DNA from: an uncultured Verrucomicrobiota bacterium
Lineage (GTDB): Bacteria > Verrucomicrobiota > Verrucomicrobiia > Limisphaerales > UBA9464
Length of the DNA: 36,903 bases
Reading direction: 5' to 3'
Assembly: GCA_903842505.1 (NCBI GenBank)
Contig: CAIMMI010000033.1
Coordinates: forward strand, 1-36,903
Below are positions 19,380 to 29,308 of the stretch, one piece after another. The translations under genes were made by a program, and so were the position numbers. The notes beneath the pieces were generated by a model, which had not been told where the DNA came from, did no database searches, and was given only the letters and a program-made list of their open reading frames with translations. How positions within the stretch are numbered: the stretch's first letter is position 1; each line of letters begins with the position of its first letter.

Positions 19380-21536
19380 TCAAACTTGCGACTCTTTCCC
19401 CACCCCCCACACCCCCAACCATCCTCGCGCCGTCGCCGGATCATTCAGGCACACCGCTCCCGATACGCATCGCGGCACCGGTTCACCTTCCCGCTTCAAC
19501 GGCTGTTCCGCCCGTAGCGCTTCCGCAAACGCCTTGAAGTCCGCATACCCGGCCGCGCGCACCTCCTTCAACGTCCACAGCCGGAATCGCCCGACCCGAC
19601 CCGGCGCAACAAACCGCATCAGACCCAGCGTCAGCCGACCCATCGTGTGGCGCGGGTTGATCTCCACCACCGGCTTGAGCCGCGCCACCCCGCTGGCATC
19701 CCGGTAGACCAGCGCATCGATCCCCAGCGGCCCTTCGTGCCCGAGCCGGCGAAGCTCCGGCTCCAACCGCTCCGCAATCGAACGGAACAACCCATGCACG
19801 CGCCCCGCCAGATCCTCCGGGACCTCCCCTCCACCGAGCGCCCGCACCACCGCCGCCGGCGGACGCCGTTCCATGCGCGGCTCCGCCCAGTTCGACTGAA
19901 ACTGCCCTCGCAGGTCGTTCACCAAGCCGGTGTACCCGACAATCCGCAGGCCCGACCGATCCCTCTCCATCTGCACCGAGAAATCCGCCATTCGCTCCAG
20001 CCACGGCTCCACCACCAACCTCCGCCCGGACGCCAACTGACCCTCCATCCACCGGATCTGTGCCGGCAATACCTCGGGCTCCCAAAGCCGGATCATCCCG
20101 CCTCCCGCGATTCCCAGATCCGCCTTCACCACGACCCGATGATGCCCGCCTTCGCGGATCCTGCGCACCCTGTCCAACGCCTCCGACAATTCCCCGACCT
20201 CAACCCCACAGACTTCCGGCCCGCACAACCACGACGAGGGCTCGACCTCGCCCAGCCATCGCCTCAGGAATTCCACCGACCAAGGCTTGCCGTACAACGC
20301 CTCGCGACCCGATCCAAACCCGCGCAGTTCCGGTCTTCGTGAAGGCGTGACGCGATCCAGCATCGGCCCCAGCAACGCCACGGAATCCGGAGCCCACGCC
20401 CAGGGACTCAGGCCGCCCAACGCCCTTCCCTCGATCACGCTGCCAGCCTGGATCCGTCCCTCCGCCAACTCCTCGAACTCGGGAACCGGAAACCCGGCCC
20501 GGACCAACTCCGTCAGGAACGGCGTCGACGGACGACGCGGCACCAGCACCACATCATCCCGCACGGCGAGATACGTCGGAAGCACGGCCAGGTCCTCCAT
20601 CAGGATCCGCTGCGATTCCGTCGGTTGAAACCCTTCACCCAGCGCCAACCCCGCTTCGGCCAGGGGATTGAACCAATGCACCGTCGGCGCCCGTCCACGC
20701 GAGCGGCCGTAAACTCCCAACTCGGAAATGAATCGGTCATCCAGACCCGCGCTCCGGCGTCCCTCGATGTTCAATGCCCCGCCCTTGGCACGGCTGGGCG
20801 ACAAGGGAAACTTCAGCTGACGCTCGTACGCCTCCCAATCGTCCAGCGTCGGATCCTTCCACTTCCGGAACCACTTCAACCCATACGCCACGTGCCCGAT
20901 CTCGTCGTGATGGATCCGGTCCAGCAACGCCGCCGTCTCCGAATCACCGGCCGCAGCGAAGGCCCGGCCGTACTCGCGCGAAAAATCCAGATTGGCCTGC
21001 TCGAAGGTCAACGGCAGCCCCGACACATAATCCAGCGGCGATGTCATTCCCGACAGCAACCGCCACAGGTGCCCGCTCACCGGCAATTCCCCGAACTCGA
21101 CTCCGCAGGCCCGCATCCGTCCCGTGTACCAGCGCGTGTGTTCCTGCTCGTCCCGCAGCGTCTTCAGCACCCCGCGCCGGAACAAAGCCGGCGCCTCCGG
21201 AAACCGCAGCAGCACCAGCGCCATCAACTCCACCGCCAGCAATTCGTGGTTGGCAAAGAAGTGCAGCACCCGACCCCGTTCGTCCCCGCGATCGAGATGC
21301 CGCGTCCCGGGAAACCCTCCGGCCCCATCCCCCGCCCCACCCACCACCGACTTGAAGCACAGCTCCGTCGGACGCCCAGGCATCGCCGGCGCCGCCATCG
21401 ATGCTCCCGGGCGCTCGTCCGTGAGTTCGCCCGGATCCGCCAGCTTCTCGGCCAGCGTCCGACCAAACAACACCTGTTCCGCAAATTCCCGGATCTCCAC
21501 GACCCGCGTGTTATCGGGAATCCGGGACCACTTCAT
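19380..21536 (-). CDS. Fusion of DUF455 ferritin-like domain and ATP-grasp-like domain
   Basis: This 718-residue protein has two enzyme-like halves. Residues about 60-230 match the DUF455 ferritin-like family, related to di-iron proteins such as MiaE: NHELLAVELMAL (E98, E103), LRDEQEHTRWY (E130, E132, H133) and IHHDEIGHVAYG (E212, H215) offer carboxylate and His ligands. Residues about 285-650 look like a pre-ATP-grasp region and an ATP-grasp fold: VVVKADLGIAGGG (K471, glycine loop 475-480), VVEPWLE (E510) and VVEINPRHTMG (E625, N627). ATP-grasp enzymes join a carboxylate to an amine or similar group; the ferritin-like half could add an oxidation. The substrate is unknown. ATG 21536 has GGGAGGAA about nine bases upstream; a GTG at 21563 lies next to repeat DNA. 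It is downstream of a GT9 enzyme in the same direction. Confidence 0.8.
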   Translation of the reverse strand: MKWSRIPDNTRVVEIREFAEQVLFGRTLAEKLADPGELTDERPGASMAAPAMPGRPTELCFKSVVGGAGDGAGGFPGTRHLDRGDERGRVLHFFANHELLAVELMALVLLRFPEAPALFRRGVLKTLRDEQEHTRWYTGRMRACGVEFGELPVSGHLWRLLSGMTSPLDYVSGLPLTFEQANLDFSREYGRAFAAAGDSETAALLDRIHHDEIGHVAYGLKWFRKWKDPTLDDWEAYERQLKFPLSPSRAKGGALNIEGRRSAGLDDRFISELGVYGRSRGRAPTVHWFNPLAEAGLALGEGFQPTESQRILMEDLAVLPTYLAVRDDVVLVPRRPSTPFLTELVRAGFPVPEFEELAEGRIQAGSVIEGRALGGLSPWAWAPDSVALLGPMLDRVTPSRRPELRGFGSGREALYGKPWSVEFLRRWLGEVEPSSWLCGPEVCGVEVGELSEALDRVRRIREGGHHRVVVKADLGIAGGGMIRLWEPEVLPAQIRWMEGQLASGRRLVVEPWLERMADFSVQMERDRSGLRIVGYTGLVNDLRGQFQSNWAEPRMERRPPAAVVRALGGGEVPEDLAGRVHGLFRSIAERLEPELRRLGHEGPLGIDALVYRDASGVARLKPVVEINPRHTMGRLTLGLMRFVAPGRVGRFRLWTLKEVRAAGYADFKAFAEALRAEQPLKREGEPVPRCVSGAVCLNDPATARGWLGVWGVGKESQV

Positions 21537-21653
21537 CCACTGAATTCCTCCCACGTGACGCACGAGGTCACGAGGCTGGGGCCAAGGGAGTTCCCAGTTG
21601 CCAGTTGCCAGGCCCCAAAACCGCAGCCGCGTACCCCAGGCGCTCGTGCCCCC
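21537..21653. repeat. Modules A and B within a same-strand gene pair
   Basis: A truncated module A (about 21554-21579, ...CACGAGGTCACGAGGCTGG) is followed by the usual linker and module B (21587-21612, GAGTTCCCAGTTGCCAGTTG). The locus lies between the GT9 gene and the DUF455/ATP-grasp gene, both on the minus strand, so it would be transcribed if they form one operon. The Shine-Dalgarno of the fusion gene lies at its left edge. Confidence 0.75.
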
Positions 21654-22766
21654 TCACCCCAGCATCCACCGCAACTCCGACAACACCCGCTCCGGGGCAA
21701 TCCCCGCGAGACACCGATGATCCGCTGGGCAATTCCGAAGGAAACACGGCCCACAAGGTACCGGTTCCCGCACGAACCGATGGCGCGAATCCCCCGGTAG
21801 TCCAGGACCGGTCAGCTCCGGCGAAGTACTTCCGAACGGCACCAGCACCCGCGCGCCCGCCGCTGCCGCGAGGTGCATGGGTCCCGTGTCATTGGTTACC
21901 ACGACCTCACACAGACCGAGCGCCGCCGCCAACTGCGCCAACGACGTCTTCCCCGCCAGCAACCGCACGTGCGTCGCACCCGCCGGCACCAGCGACTGCG
22001 CCAACTCAACATCCGACGGCCCTCCGAACACCGCCACCCCCAACTCCGGATCCAACACCAACTCGCCCACCAACCATCGGAAGGCCTCCGACGGCCAACG
22101 CTTGGCAGGACCATATTCCGCACCGGCATTGATCCCCACCCATCGACGCGACGCTTCGAGGCCGAACCGCTCGCGCACCTCGGTCGTCACCGCAGCATCG
22201 ATCCGCACCACCGGCGCCAGCGGTTCCGGGTTGCCACCCAGCGGTCGCAGCAATCGCAGGTACTGATGAACATGGTGCGCGGCAGGCCCCGGCAAGGGCT
22301 GCCCCCAATGCATCGGACTGTCGCCCCTCGCCAGCACCGCCCGGATCGCTTCGGCGCTCCGCCGAACCATCGGCACCGCTCCGGCATGCGCCTCGACCAC
22401 ATCCGTCAGCATCCAGTTCCGCCAAGGCCACCGGCCACCGACCCGGCGCGGAACCCGACCCAGGAACAGTTCCATCGCCGAGCGCGGGGAATTCGGGAAC
22501 ACCACCCCCAGGTCGAACCGACCGGCCCGCACCCGACGCGACACCGACCACGCGCCCTCGCCATTCGCGATCGTCAGGACTTCGTCGACTCCCGGGTGCC
22601 CCACCCACAACCCTGACAGCTTCGCCTGCGTGAGCAGGGTGATCGACGCCTCCGGGAAACGCTCCCGAAGCCGCATCACCGCCGGAGTCGACATCACCGC
22701 GTCGCCCAGCCAATTCACCGCCCGGACGATAATCCGTCGGGGGAACCTGGGATCAGGTTTTGCCAT
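21654..22766 (-). CDS. Glycosyltransferase family 9 (heptosyltransferase-like)
   Basis: This 370-residue GT-B glycosyltransferase is of the ADP-heptose:LPS heptosyltransferase type. The N-terminal RAVNWLGDAVMSTPAV (residues about 14-29) and the C-terminal VVVTNDTGPMHLAAAAGARV are the family signatures. The CGPCFLRNCPADHRCLAGI stretch near the end is the Cys-rich block typical of WaaF-like members. It acts at the inner face of the cytoplasmic membrane, adding a heptose or similar sugar to lipid A core or another glycolipid. The ATG at 22766 is 23 bases after the stop of the upstream Gfo/Idh gene, so the two are probably co-transcribed. A TTG at 22802 overlapping that gene is less likely. Which core residue it adds cannot be told. 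Confidence 0.9.
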   Translation of the reverse strand: MAKPDPRFPRRIIVRAVNWLGDAVMSTPAVMRLRERFPEASITLLTQAKLSGLWVGHPGVDEVLTIANGEGAWSVSRRVRAGRFDLGVVFPNSPRSAMELFLGRVPRRVGGRWPWRNWMLTDVVEAHAGAVPMVRRSAEAIRAVLARGDSPMHWGQPLPGPAAHHVHQYLRLLRPLGGNPEPLAPVVRIDAAVTTEVRERFGLEASRRWVGINAGAEYGPAKRWPSEAFRWLVGELVLDPELGVAVFGGPSDVELAQSLVPAGATHVRLLAGKTSLAQLAAALGLCEVVVTNDTGPMHLAAAAGARVLVPFGSTSPELTGPGLPGDSRHRFVREPVPCGPCFLRNCPADHRCLAGIAPERVLSELRWMLG

Positions 22767-27377: not shown

Positions 27378-28787
27378 CTACCGCCCCAGCGCCCGGCTCC
27401 CAGGAGCCGGGTACTTGCGGGCGACATCATCCAGCACCAGCACCCAGTCGAGGTCTTCGCCCGGGTTCGGCGGCGTGAACATGCGCTCGCCCTCGGCCTT
27501 GAACACGCCTATCTCCGTCGCCTTCCCCGTCCGCGGATCAAACCACCACGCCCTCACCTTCTCGCCCCGGATGACTCCCAGCTTCGCAGTGAAACGACGC
27601 CCACACGGCGCATAGATCATCGCGTAGGTCCCTTCCGAATCCTTGGTCGCCACAAACCGGTACCGTCCCGCGCCCGGCACGGACGTCTCCACCGCCTCCG
27701 GCACGATCCCTTCCGGAGCCGGCACCCGGGTGAGAAATGGCCGCGACTCCATCAAGGCCCGACCGTGCTGCATCTGGGCCGCCCCAGGCTGCAGGATCGC
27801 CTCCGTCCACGGCATCAGGGGATTGTTCACCGGCTTCTTTGCCGATGACCACATCTGCCAGACGGAATGATGCCCGTACGTGTGCCCGAACGCCCCCTCG
27901 AATAGGTCCCAGTACAAGGGCCGGCGAACGTCCGACGCCGTCGAATGCCCGAACTTTTTCGCATCAAATGAAACCGGGTGATCCTCGTAGATCGGCTCGC
28001 CATCGAGCACGGGCTTCACCGGCGTGCGATCGTAGTCGACGCGGGTCTGGTCATAGCGTCCGGTGAACTCCGCGGCGTGGCCGTTCTGCCGCATGTTGAA
28101 GTCGAGCCAGTCCTCGCCGTGGAAGTGCTGGCTGGAACTGGCGCCGCCCGTCGGATGCCACGTGATCAGGTGGGCACCGCCATCTCCGCGCCGCAACCCA
28201 CGCGCCATCGCCCGCGTGATCTCCCTGTGGGAATTCGTCTCGGCTGGCCGGTCACCACCCAGGATCCAGATGAGGCCCGCGTCCTTGTACCGCCGACCAA
28301 GCCACTCGCCGTACTGCTCGGCATTCGCCACCGTGAAGATCTCCGGACCCGCGCCCCACTTCTTGTTCCACTTGTCGCCCCAGGTCGGCAGGAAGCCAAT
28401 GTACAGGCCCAGCTCGTTCGCCTTCTTCACGATGGCGTCGACGTGCGCAAAGTACTTCTCGCTGGGCTTCGTCGGGTCGTTGCCTTCCAGAGGCCGATCC
28501 CCATTCGCGTTGGGATCGTTGAGCCCGTCGAGTTCAGCCAGTGCCACCGCCTGGATCACCGTGAACCGCCGCTCAGCCCGATTCTTCAGGTAGGCTTCCG
28601 CGTCCCGACGGTCGAGTCGGTGAAACAGTTCCCACGCCGTGTCCCCCAGCCAGAAGAACGGCTTGCCGTCCTCCGTCACCAGGAAGCGCTTGTTCTCGCT
28701 CACCTTCAACCGCGGTAACGGCGCCGCCTGCATCACCGCCACCAGACTGCAGAACAACCAGCCAAGGATCCAGGATCGCATGTTCAT
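27378..28787 (-). CDS. Secreted DUF4038 / GH140-like glycoside hydrolase
   Basis: This 469-residue exported protein (signal [19 protein letters not shown], cleavage after AA) has a DUF4038-type TIM barrel: [15 protein letters not shown] near the start, [12 protein letters not shown] and [12 protein letters not shown] holding the likely acidic pair (Asp in GGD, Glu in DGEP), and [13 protein letters not shown]. The C-terminal 90 residues fit the small beta domain often annotated as putative collagen-binding ([13 protein letters not shown]). GH140 members cleave apiose from rhamnogalacturonan II; other DUF4038 members have different or unknown substrates. ATG 28787 or 28781 gives a good signal peptide; the frame further upstream is rejected. 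Confidence 0.85.
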
Positions 28788-29308
28788 CCATCGCCCCGAC
28801 CGCACCGGGCCCCATGCCCGCCGCGCCTCCGGGTTCGTCCAAACATCAAAACCGCTTTCTCCATTCCCGGCGAGGTTCCATTGCAGCCACCCACGTGACA
28901 TTCCTCCGGTGGGGCGAGTGTCCTCACGAGCCGCTCAGGAGTCCCAAGTTTCAACCTGAAACCGGCAGTTCATTGAACCGCAGAGGTCGCCGATTGCGCA
29001 GAGGGAGGGGCTGCACCACCCAATCCATGCTGGGTTTGGGCGTCCCCTCGAAGGTGCGCGGGCGTTTCACTTCAAGGCCCTGTCTATCTGCGTCATCGGC
29101 GAGGGTATGAGGTTTCAACTGCTGTTTCCTGGTTCAAGCCCGGCGGCCGCTCCAAACCTGAAACTGAAAACTTCAAACTCCGGAACGGCTCGACAGAGTC
29201 TAGCCCCACCCGGTTCCGGCTGTGCCAGGATGCACCCCAGCCAACGTCCGGAGGCGGTTCAAACTCCACTTCAATCCTGGGTCTTGAAACTTCAACCTCC
29301 TCCCCAGC
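28788..29308. repeat. Repeat-rich gap with modules D, C and an AGAGG-type repeat
   Basis: Direct D (28908-28933, GGTGGGGCGAGTGTCCTCAC...), module C fragments (about 28942-28963, 29155-29179 and 29281-29297) and inverted D (29183-29211) are present. A different repeat, rich in CGCAGAGG, lies at 28975-29006, and TCTATCTGCGTCATCGGCG at about 29083-29101 looks like its usual companion. No gene or promoter was recognised; the divergent start of the hydrolase lies at the left edge. Confidence 0.7.

Follow-up and report, generated by a model that had tools for sequence, protein, structure and literature searches.

What reaction could be carried out by a protein in which a DUF455 domain and an ATP-grasp module are joined in a single chain? 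The question is raised by a gene on the minus strand (positions 19380-21536) of a 36,903-nucleotide stretch of DNA, contig CAIMMI010000033.1 of assembly GCA_903842505.1, from an uncultured Verrucomicrobiota bacterium (GTDB lineage Limisphaerales; UBA9464). This whole stretch is called the window below. The product could be an enzyme with two active sites, in which a ligase of the amino-acid or peptide type works together with a di-iron oxidase; judged from the predicted folds and the conserved residues, the case for this proposal is evenly balanced. The pairing itself is kept intact in many relatives.

Residue numbers refer to the 706-amino-acid form of the protein; those of the first-pass annotation, made by a model from the letters of the window, refer to the 718-amino-acid form and run 12 higher. 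Conservation is given in rows of 113 distinct sequences (the 74 rows of alignment A2, 37 other distinct matches in loci L002-L160 and new genes in L174 and L179), a count limited to matches whose locus was fetched. The gene and its parts are as follows.

19380-21536, minus strand: gene of the fused protein, 718 amino acids from ATG 21536 or 706 amino acids from GTG 21500
20727-21314, minus strand: DUF455 (PF04305) match by Pfam, residues 63-258 (E = 3.2e-48 in the genome scan)
20859-21287, minus strand: predicted ferritin-like four-helix bundle, residues 72-214, with six predicted iron ligands (fold model and conservation)
20685-20711, minus strand: junction, residues 264-272, S267-x-G269-R270-x-P272 (112/112 rows)
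19383-20684, minus strand: ATP-grasp module with its pre-ATP-grasp part, residues 273-706, opening with the xFNPxxE motif (predicted fold)
20286-20288, minus strand: K405, second predicted ATP-binding lysine (113/113 rows)
20124-20126, minus strand: K459, predicted ATP-binding lysine (113/113 rows)
20097-20114, minus strand: small-residue loop over ATP, residues 463-468, GIAGGG (GxAGxN in most relatives)
20007-20009, minus strand: E498 in VVEPWLER, predicted hinge residue of the adenine pocket (112/112 rows with a letter here)
19716-19718, minus strand: D595, other predicted Mg ligand (109/109 rows)
19650-19664, minus strand: E613-I-N615-P-R617, predicted Mg ligands and catalytic arginine (109/109 rows reaching this point)

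The N-terminal half is a member of DUF455 (Pfam E = 1.9e-47, 162.4 bits against a gathering score of 34.3). Modelled alone on a 58-row alignment, it gives a bundle with a mean predicted local distance difference test score (pLDDT) of 90.4. Among the best 50 matches listed, its VIA-align Z values are 14.3-16.0, mostly over about 140 residues, and belong to bacterioferritins, Dps proteins, rubrerythrin and similar proteins; on helical bundles, Z below about 13 may reflect a shared arrangement alone. The match of the predicted domain to the ferritin-like fold is moderately strong, in agreement with the ferritin-like DUF455 domain proposed in the first-pass annotation. Weak profile matches of DUF455 include R2 proteins, R2lox, bacterioferritin, aldehyde decarbonylase and a toluene monooxygenase (E 0.006 to 0.6), listed among others that look like chance.

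The predicted iron ligands are E86, E118-x-x-H121, E167 and E200-x-x-H203, all kept in 112/112 rows with the domain. Their order, E-ExxH-E-ExxH, which is also that of bacterioferritin, and the predicted four-helix bundle together point to the ferritin-like di-iron superfamily. Five of these residues had already been named (E98, E130, H133, E212 and H215 in 718-form numbers), and the loss of ligands in homologues that would have spoken against them did not occur. E167 (E179 of the longer form) had been overlooked, and two further candidates are dropped. E120, named as E132, is variable (E in 65/111 rows). E91, named as E103, never varies in the fusion; among DUF455 proteins that lack the module, D stands here in 7/10 and N in 1/10, whereas E86 remains E in 10/10. 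Thus, E91 is probably not an iron ligand, even if Asp at this position might bind metal in some proteins. In comparison with the heme-oxygenase-like di-iron oxidases, the matches listed for the N-terminal domain are ferritin-like and its predicted ligands are two His and four Glu instead of a three-His/three-carboxylate set, and families beyond the matches listed may match as well.

For the C-terminal module of the window protein, Pfam and NCBIfam yield no match up to E = 1; this includes PreAtp-grasp (PF18604) and LdmS (NF047900, cut-off 475 bits). PF18604 is approached by one relative (E = 0.043, 14.8 bits against a gathering score of 27.5). The ATP-grasp-like domain of the first-pass annotation is recovered from the predicted structure. 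The full-length AlphaFold model, built on a 74-row alignment, has a mean pLDDT of 93.4 and a predicted template modelling score of 0.91. Foldseek with the module gives a best E of 6.4e-14, and the best 50 matches listed all contain ATP-grasp. The top seven VIA-align matches are 3wvr (Z 28.6, 369 residues aligned), 3wvq, 8ynd (26.9), 8ynq, BesA (8yi6, 24.4), 7r8p (23.7) and 7r8q, with Z from 28.6 to 23.6. Enzymes of the purine pathway such as PurK rank below (Z 19.4 at most). By title, 3wvr and 3wvq are an "ATP grasp protein" and 8ynd is an "ATP-grasp peptide ligase". We take 3wvr/3wvq to be the pheganomycin peptide ligase, and 7r8p/7r8q (SAOUHSC_02373) presumably represents LdmS, which is linked to Asp-Met ligation. 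A profile search reaches 7r8p weakly by sequence as well (E = 0.0007).

These ligases (3wvr/3wvq, 8ynd/8ynq, BesA and SAOUHSC_02373) resemble residues 270-706 of the fusion in fold (Z 23.6-28.6) and in the ATP- and Mg-binding residues, whereas their identity to the module is only 14-17%. In contrast to them, the window protein is fused to a predicted di-iron domain and fits no Pfam or NCBIfam ligase model. By analogy with ATP-grasp enzymes, the presumed roles are ATP binding for K405 and K459, the hinge for E498, Mg binding for D595, E613 and N615 and catalysis for R617. All of them are exceptionless in the rows with letters at these positions; the rows lacking letters (L085, L089, L097 and L100) stop at contig ends. 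Because the lysine pair, the hinge glutamate and the Mg/catalytic set are unchanged, the C-terminal half is by its residues a complete ATP-grasp enzyme, and the enzymes closest to it in predicted fold include ligases of peptides and of amino acids. The residues originally proposed for this half (K471, E510, E625 and N627 in 718-form numbers) thus prove invariant, K417, D607 and R629 can be added to them as unlisted invariant positions, and the GIAGGG loop is near-invariant only at A-G (107/111 rows each).

The two halves are connected by a short junction, in which S267, G269, R270 and P272 are invariant in 112/112 rows with the DUF455 half. The SxGRxP motif is absent from the stand-alone halves: four lone alphaproteobacterial DUF455 proteins stop at about this point, and the lone C-modules of Bacteroidales start at the following xFNP. 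Residues 261-270 are ordered in the full model (mean pLDDT 85) and not at the end of the lone-domain model (48), which counts in favour of the proposal. R622, adjoining the catalytic RxTMG, is found in 109/109 rows of the fusion and is kept in genome G463, where the module occurs alone; in six other lone modules (Bacteroidales and Streptomyces) the position is M, H, V or G. Since the junction is invariant in the fusion and missing from the lone halves, a fixed arrangement of the two sites may be inferred, and the junction together with R622 argues for a substrate specific to the fusion.

The linkage is seen in the class sample. The C-module occurs in 43/286 genomes and DUF455 scores above the cut-off in 56, with 42 strong matches (E 1e-43 or better) and 14 weak ones (E 1e-14 and worse). 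All 42 genomes with strong DUF455 carry the C-module, at a distance of at most about 35 bases and in a frame of equal listed length. In the phylum-wide sample, 22/288 genomes match; 14, the source of the window included, have both halves, eight have a weak DUF455 match only, and 266 have none. Among the near genomes 25/39 match, as do 22/24 within the family of the window itself. In the named collection, loci were taken from the best 80 of 347 relatives and are therefore biased to close ones; all 80 reach into both halves, 76 of them to the end of the query, and four run off contig ends. The same architecture is found at 27-34% identity in another class of the phylum (L112-L114). The one candidate for spread outside the phylum is L099, whose title is Latescibacterota; in the gene tree it sits on a long branch beside two Verrucomicrobiota rows (support 88), and transfer and mis-binning are both possible sources. 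Loci titled Akkermansia muciniphila, Klebsiella pneumoniae and Proteobacteria (L021, L027, L036, L037, L042 and others) group with Limisphaerales-titled rows, and their titles look wrong.

Each half also has relatives of its own. In the plasmid collection, the C-module alone is found in five records (Parabacteroides, Bacteroides, Phocaeicola and Prevotella), three of them annotated as hypothetical protein. The Bacteroidales lone modules (e.g., L127, WP_122246558.1) resemble the C-module of the fusion in keeping the ATP and Mg residues, except K405; they differ from it in the absence of DUF455, in R at position 405 and in the absence of R622 (five proteins). No annotated DUF455 partner stands alongside the lone modules in the annotated stretches. 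They represent an unannotated ATP-grasp family with an FNPxHD-type start (L127 5992-7200, L128 5998-7113, L166 3986-5191, L165 and L167 near 4001); no Pfam model fits the two members scanned, and a lone Parabacteroides relative has a match to LdmS below the cut-off (E = 8e-8, 31.4 bits against 475). A more distant relative, a PreAtp-grasp-like protein (E = 8e-4, below the cut-off), is encoded in a Streptomyces plasmid cluster (L129 4116-11296) with a radical SAM enzyme, an acyl carrier protein, a condensation domain and a Gfo/Idh oxidoreductase, possibly for an undescribed peptide-type product.

Lone DUF455 genes are present in 15 plasmid records from Alphaproteobacteria, Neisseria and Geobacillus. 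The domain and the six ligands of the fusion are shared by 10/10 DUF455 proteins without the module. The lone forms of Sinorhizobium, Sphingomonas, Azospirillum and Thioclava differ from the fusion in that they have 274-286 amino acids, stop near the start of the junction and have neither SxGRxP nor ATP-grasp. No ATP-grasp gene is annotated within 4-5 kb of lone DUF455 in four alphaproteobacterial records, for which the PLSDB gene tables are incomplete, or within 3 kb in Geobacillus; the Neisseria record carries no annotation in this region. A second, distant DUF455-like family exists in Verrucomicrobiota (L115-L124; about 425-590 amino acids with another N-terminal half, e.g., L117 289-2061 and L123 673-2037). 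The six ligands are kept in 4/4 members checked, and the two scanned reach the Pfam cut-off for DUF455 only.

As to the gene itself, the open frame spans 19380-21563 on the minus strand. A good ribosome-binding site (gggagg), already noticed in the first-pass annotation, precedes ATG 21536 only. The first-pass annotation was right to place both motif sets in one protein: the frame is real, DUF455 is recognized by Pfam and ATP-grasp by the predicted fold. Most relatives align from residue 13 onwards in 718-form numbers, i.e., from the GTG residue (21500). Because the ribosome-binding site favours ATG 21536, and L021 and L023 have ATG in place of the GTG of the window, either start is possible. 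Selection on the gene is purifying (dS, the synonymous divergence, about 1.0 and dN, the nonsynonymous one, 0.19-0.20 relative to the two nearest relatives, L021 and L022). In the same comparison, dN is about 0.10 for the N-terminal domain versus 0.26 for the C-module, which indicates a tighter constraint on the former. The genomes are GC-rich, and long antisense or spurious open frames are observed in the window (20625-21800, plus strand), L079 (5502-8000) and L106 (1648-4533). The frame in L079 enters the fusion gene in frame and imitates a fusion of 1530 amino acids. An apparent tandem duplication in L075 and L078, obtained by single-linkage clustering, was an artefact of this frame.

The neighbouring genes were considered as a possible source of information on the substrate. 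At 81 loci, upstream coverage is at least 1.5 kb in 74 and 3 kb in 65, and downstream coverage is 3 kb in 60. No neighbour cluster occurs in more than 11/81 loci, a rough count, since length was the criterion for choosing frames, genes may be displaced by antisense frames and flanks vary; a conserved operon was dropped on this ground. Among eleven 19-kb stretches of other families, a given neighbour is common to three at most, always genomes of one family. Since no neighbour is shared beyond these limits, the fusion gene looks like a stand-alone function and not like a member of a pathway, and its surroundings offer no clue to a substrate or redox partner. By eye, the frequent neighbours look like housekeeping, prepilin-like or secreted proteins; DEAD helicase, ABC-F, RF3 and ClpSA are among the housekeeping-like genes nearby. 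Apparent ribonucleotide reductase beta and alpha genes lie directly upstream of the fusion in L071 (3095-7769) and L094 (from 3095), as judged by eye; a link with ribonucleotide reductase was dropped, being seen at these two loci only. A defence or phage origin was dropped as well, because PADLOC and PHROGs gave no match up to E = 0.1. At 27378-28901 on the minus strand, the window also encodes a glycoside hydrolase of the apiosidase-like type, which ends in a domain of the collagen-binding type (E = 1.2e-118).

In the proposed mechanism, the substrate of the C-module would be a small carboxylic acid, with an amino acid or a short peptide as the likeliest candidates, and ATP would convert it into an acyl phosphate. 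An amine would then attack the acyl phosphate with the formation of a peptide-like amide bond. ATP-dependent amide formation is the part of the scheme in which confidence is highest, and it can be called quite probable. The DUF455 domain would hold two irons in its ferritin-like bundle and could use O2 for hydroxylation, desaturation or N-oxygenation of the joined product or of one of its building blocks. Oxygen chemistry at the putative di-iron site is somewhat more probable than its absence. The short, strictly conserved junction would keep both sites in a fixed arrangement. Whether both sites act on one substrate line could be answered either way with equal justification. The role of joining and oxidizing a substrate, put forward in the first-pass annotation, is a reasonable inference.

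Several observations weigh against this proposal. The best Foldseek E of the lone N-terminal domain is only 0.027. Iron-storage and peroxide-reducing proteins, the top fold matches, have the six-ligand set just as well; therefore, oxidation of a substrate is not implied by the residues. The low pLDDT of residues 261-270 in the model of the lone domain could partly be a chain-end effect. The ligase half can exist unaided, as follows from the stand-alone module of Bacteroidales. A 518-amino-acid C-module protein is likewise kept in G463 (L147 1300-2856), a genome without any DUF455 match; this state could reflect a genuine loss of the domain or an error in the assembly. Finally, neither a pathway nor an electron donor is provided by the neighbouring genes.

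In a rival reading, catalysis is left to the ligase, and the di-iron domain serves as its redox, iron- or peroxide-reactive switch and not as an oxygenase. The bacterioferritins, Dps proteins and rubrerythrin among the best solved folds speak for such a switch, as do the peroxiredoxin gene adjoining the lone DUF455 gene in two alphaproteobacterial records (L130 and L161) and the ligase-like modules that stand alone in Bacteroidales and G463. The conservation of the six ligands in every row with the domain speaks against it, together with the weak profile likeness to R2, R2lox, aldehyde decarbonylase and toluene monooxygenase, and it is considered rather unlikely. Somewhat less probable still is a modifier of macromolecules (protein or RNA), whose ATP-grasp module would attach an amino acid and whose DUF455 domain would hydroxylate it, a combination comparable to the separate RimK-like and MiaE-like enzymes. 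The lack of pathway neighbours, with some of the genes nearby housekeeping-like by eye, is as expected of a stand-alone modifier, and one lone DUF455 protein has a weak match to MiaE (E = 0.0036, 17.6 bits, below the cut-off of 27). However, amino acids or short peptides are the substrates of the nearest ATP-grasp relatives of known structure, and the window protein has no match to MiaE (PF06175) or RimK at E up to 1.

It is improbable that two unrelated activities are merely encoded together and share no substrate. Each half is indeed found alone elsewhere, but an invariant junction specific to the fusion and the complete linkage in the class sample speak against a casual union. Least probable, and very unlikely, is an envelope or nucleotide enzyme acting with the adjoining GT9 glycosyltransferase. 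This was the substrate guess of the first-pass annotation, and the window does carry a GT9 gene (Glyco_transf_9, E = 1.9e-33) on the same strand, upstream of the fusion. The guess falls because a relative of this GT9 (blastp E up to 1e-8) is found near the fusion gene in just 2/81 loci. One of these is the window and the other its close relative L022, where it is more than 1 kb away; the counts come close to refuting the GT9 partnership, which was dropped. A ligase coupled to a di-iron oxidase is the reading preferred here.

A pairing of this kind has precedents in which the components are separate. In the mangotoxin pathway, a tripeptide is built by two ATP-grasp ligases (MboC and MboD) and oxidized by the di-iron enzyme MboA; the authors report that 1447 oxidase sequences of this kind lie close to ATP-grasp ligases (PMC13185094). 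Predicted operons that combine a di-iron oxygenase-cupin protein with ATP-grasp ligases are also described (PMC2922099). Both systems resemble the fusion in the pairing of a di-iron oxidase with ATP-grasp peptide ligases and differ from it in that separate proteins are encoded in clusters or operons, in contrast to one polypeptide with no conserved cluster. The mangotoxin oxidase is heme-oxygenase-like, whereas the domain of the fusion is ferritin-like. No experimental function of DUF455 was found in the open-licence literature searched; one database paper gives only predicted pathway labels (electron transport and Fe-S biogenesis) and a cysteine site in its passages on DUF455 (PMC12828279), and another source deals with the assignment of folds. 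A description of DUF455 paired with ATP-grasp was likewise not found within the same open-licence literature, so that earlier notice elsewhere is possible, and no characterized enzyme with this architecture turned up there, as the first-pass annotation had supposed. Both domains are known, and their union in a single chain appears to be undescribed.

The association of DUF455 with an ATP-grasp module that has peptide ligases among its kin gives one testable idea for both unknowns, namely that the substrate of DUF455 is an amino-acid amide or a building block of it. The same comparison reveals the unannotated ligase-like family in Bacteroidales. A more far-reaching version, tentative and rather less probable than the coupling itself, is a ligase-oxygenase on one polypeptide that would form an amide and oxidize it, with the product channelled between the sites. 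Such a function would be widely retained among environmental Verrucomicrobiota, outside gene clusters, and would yield an undescribed metabolite or modification. If the two sites do share a substrate, the fusion would represent a compact, one-gene version of multi-gene natural-product chemistry.

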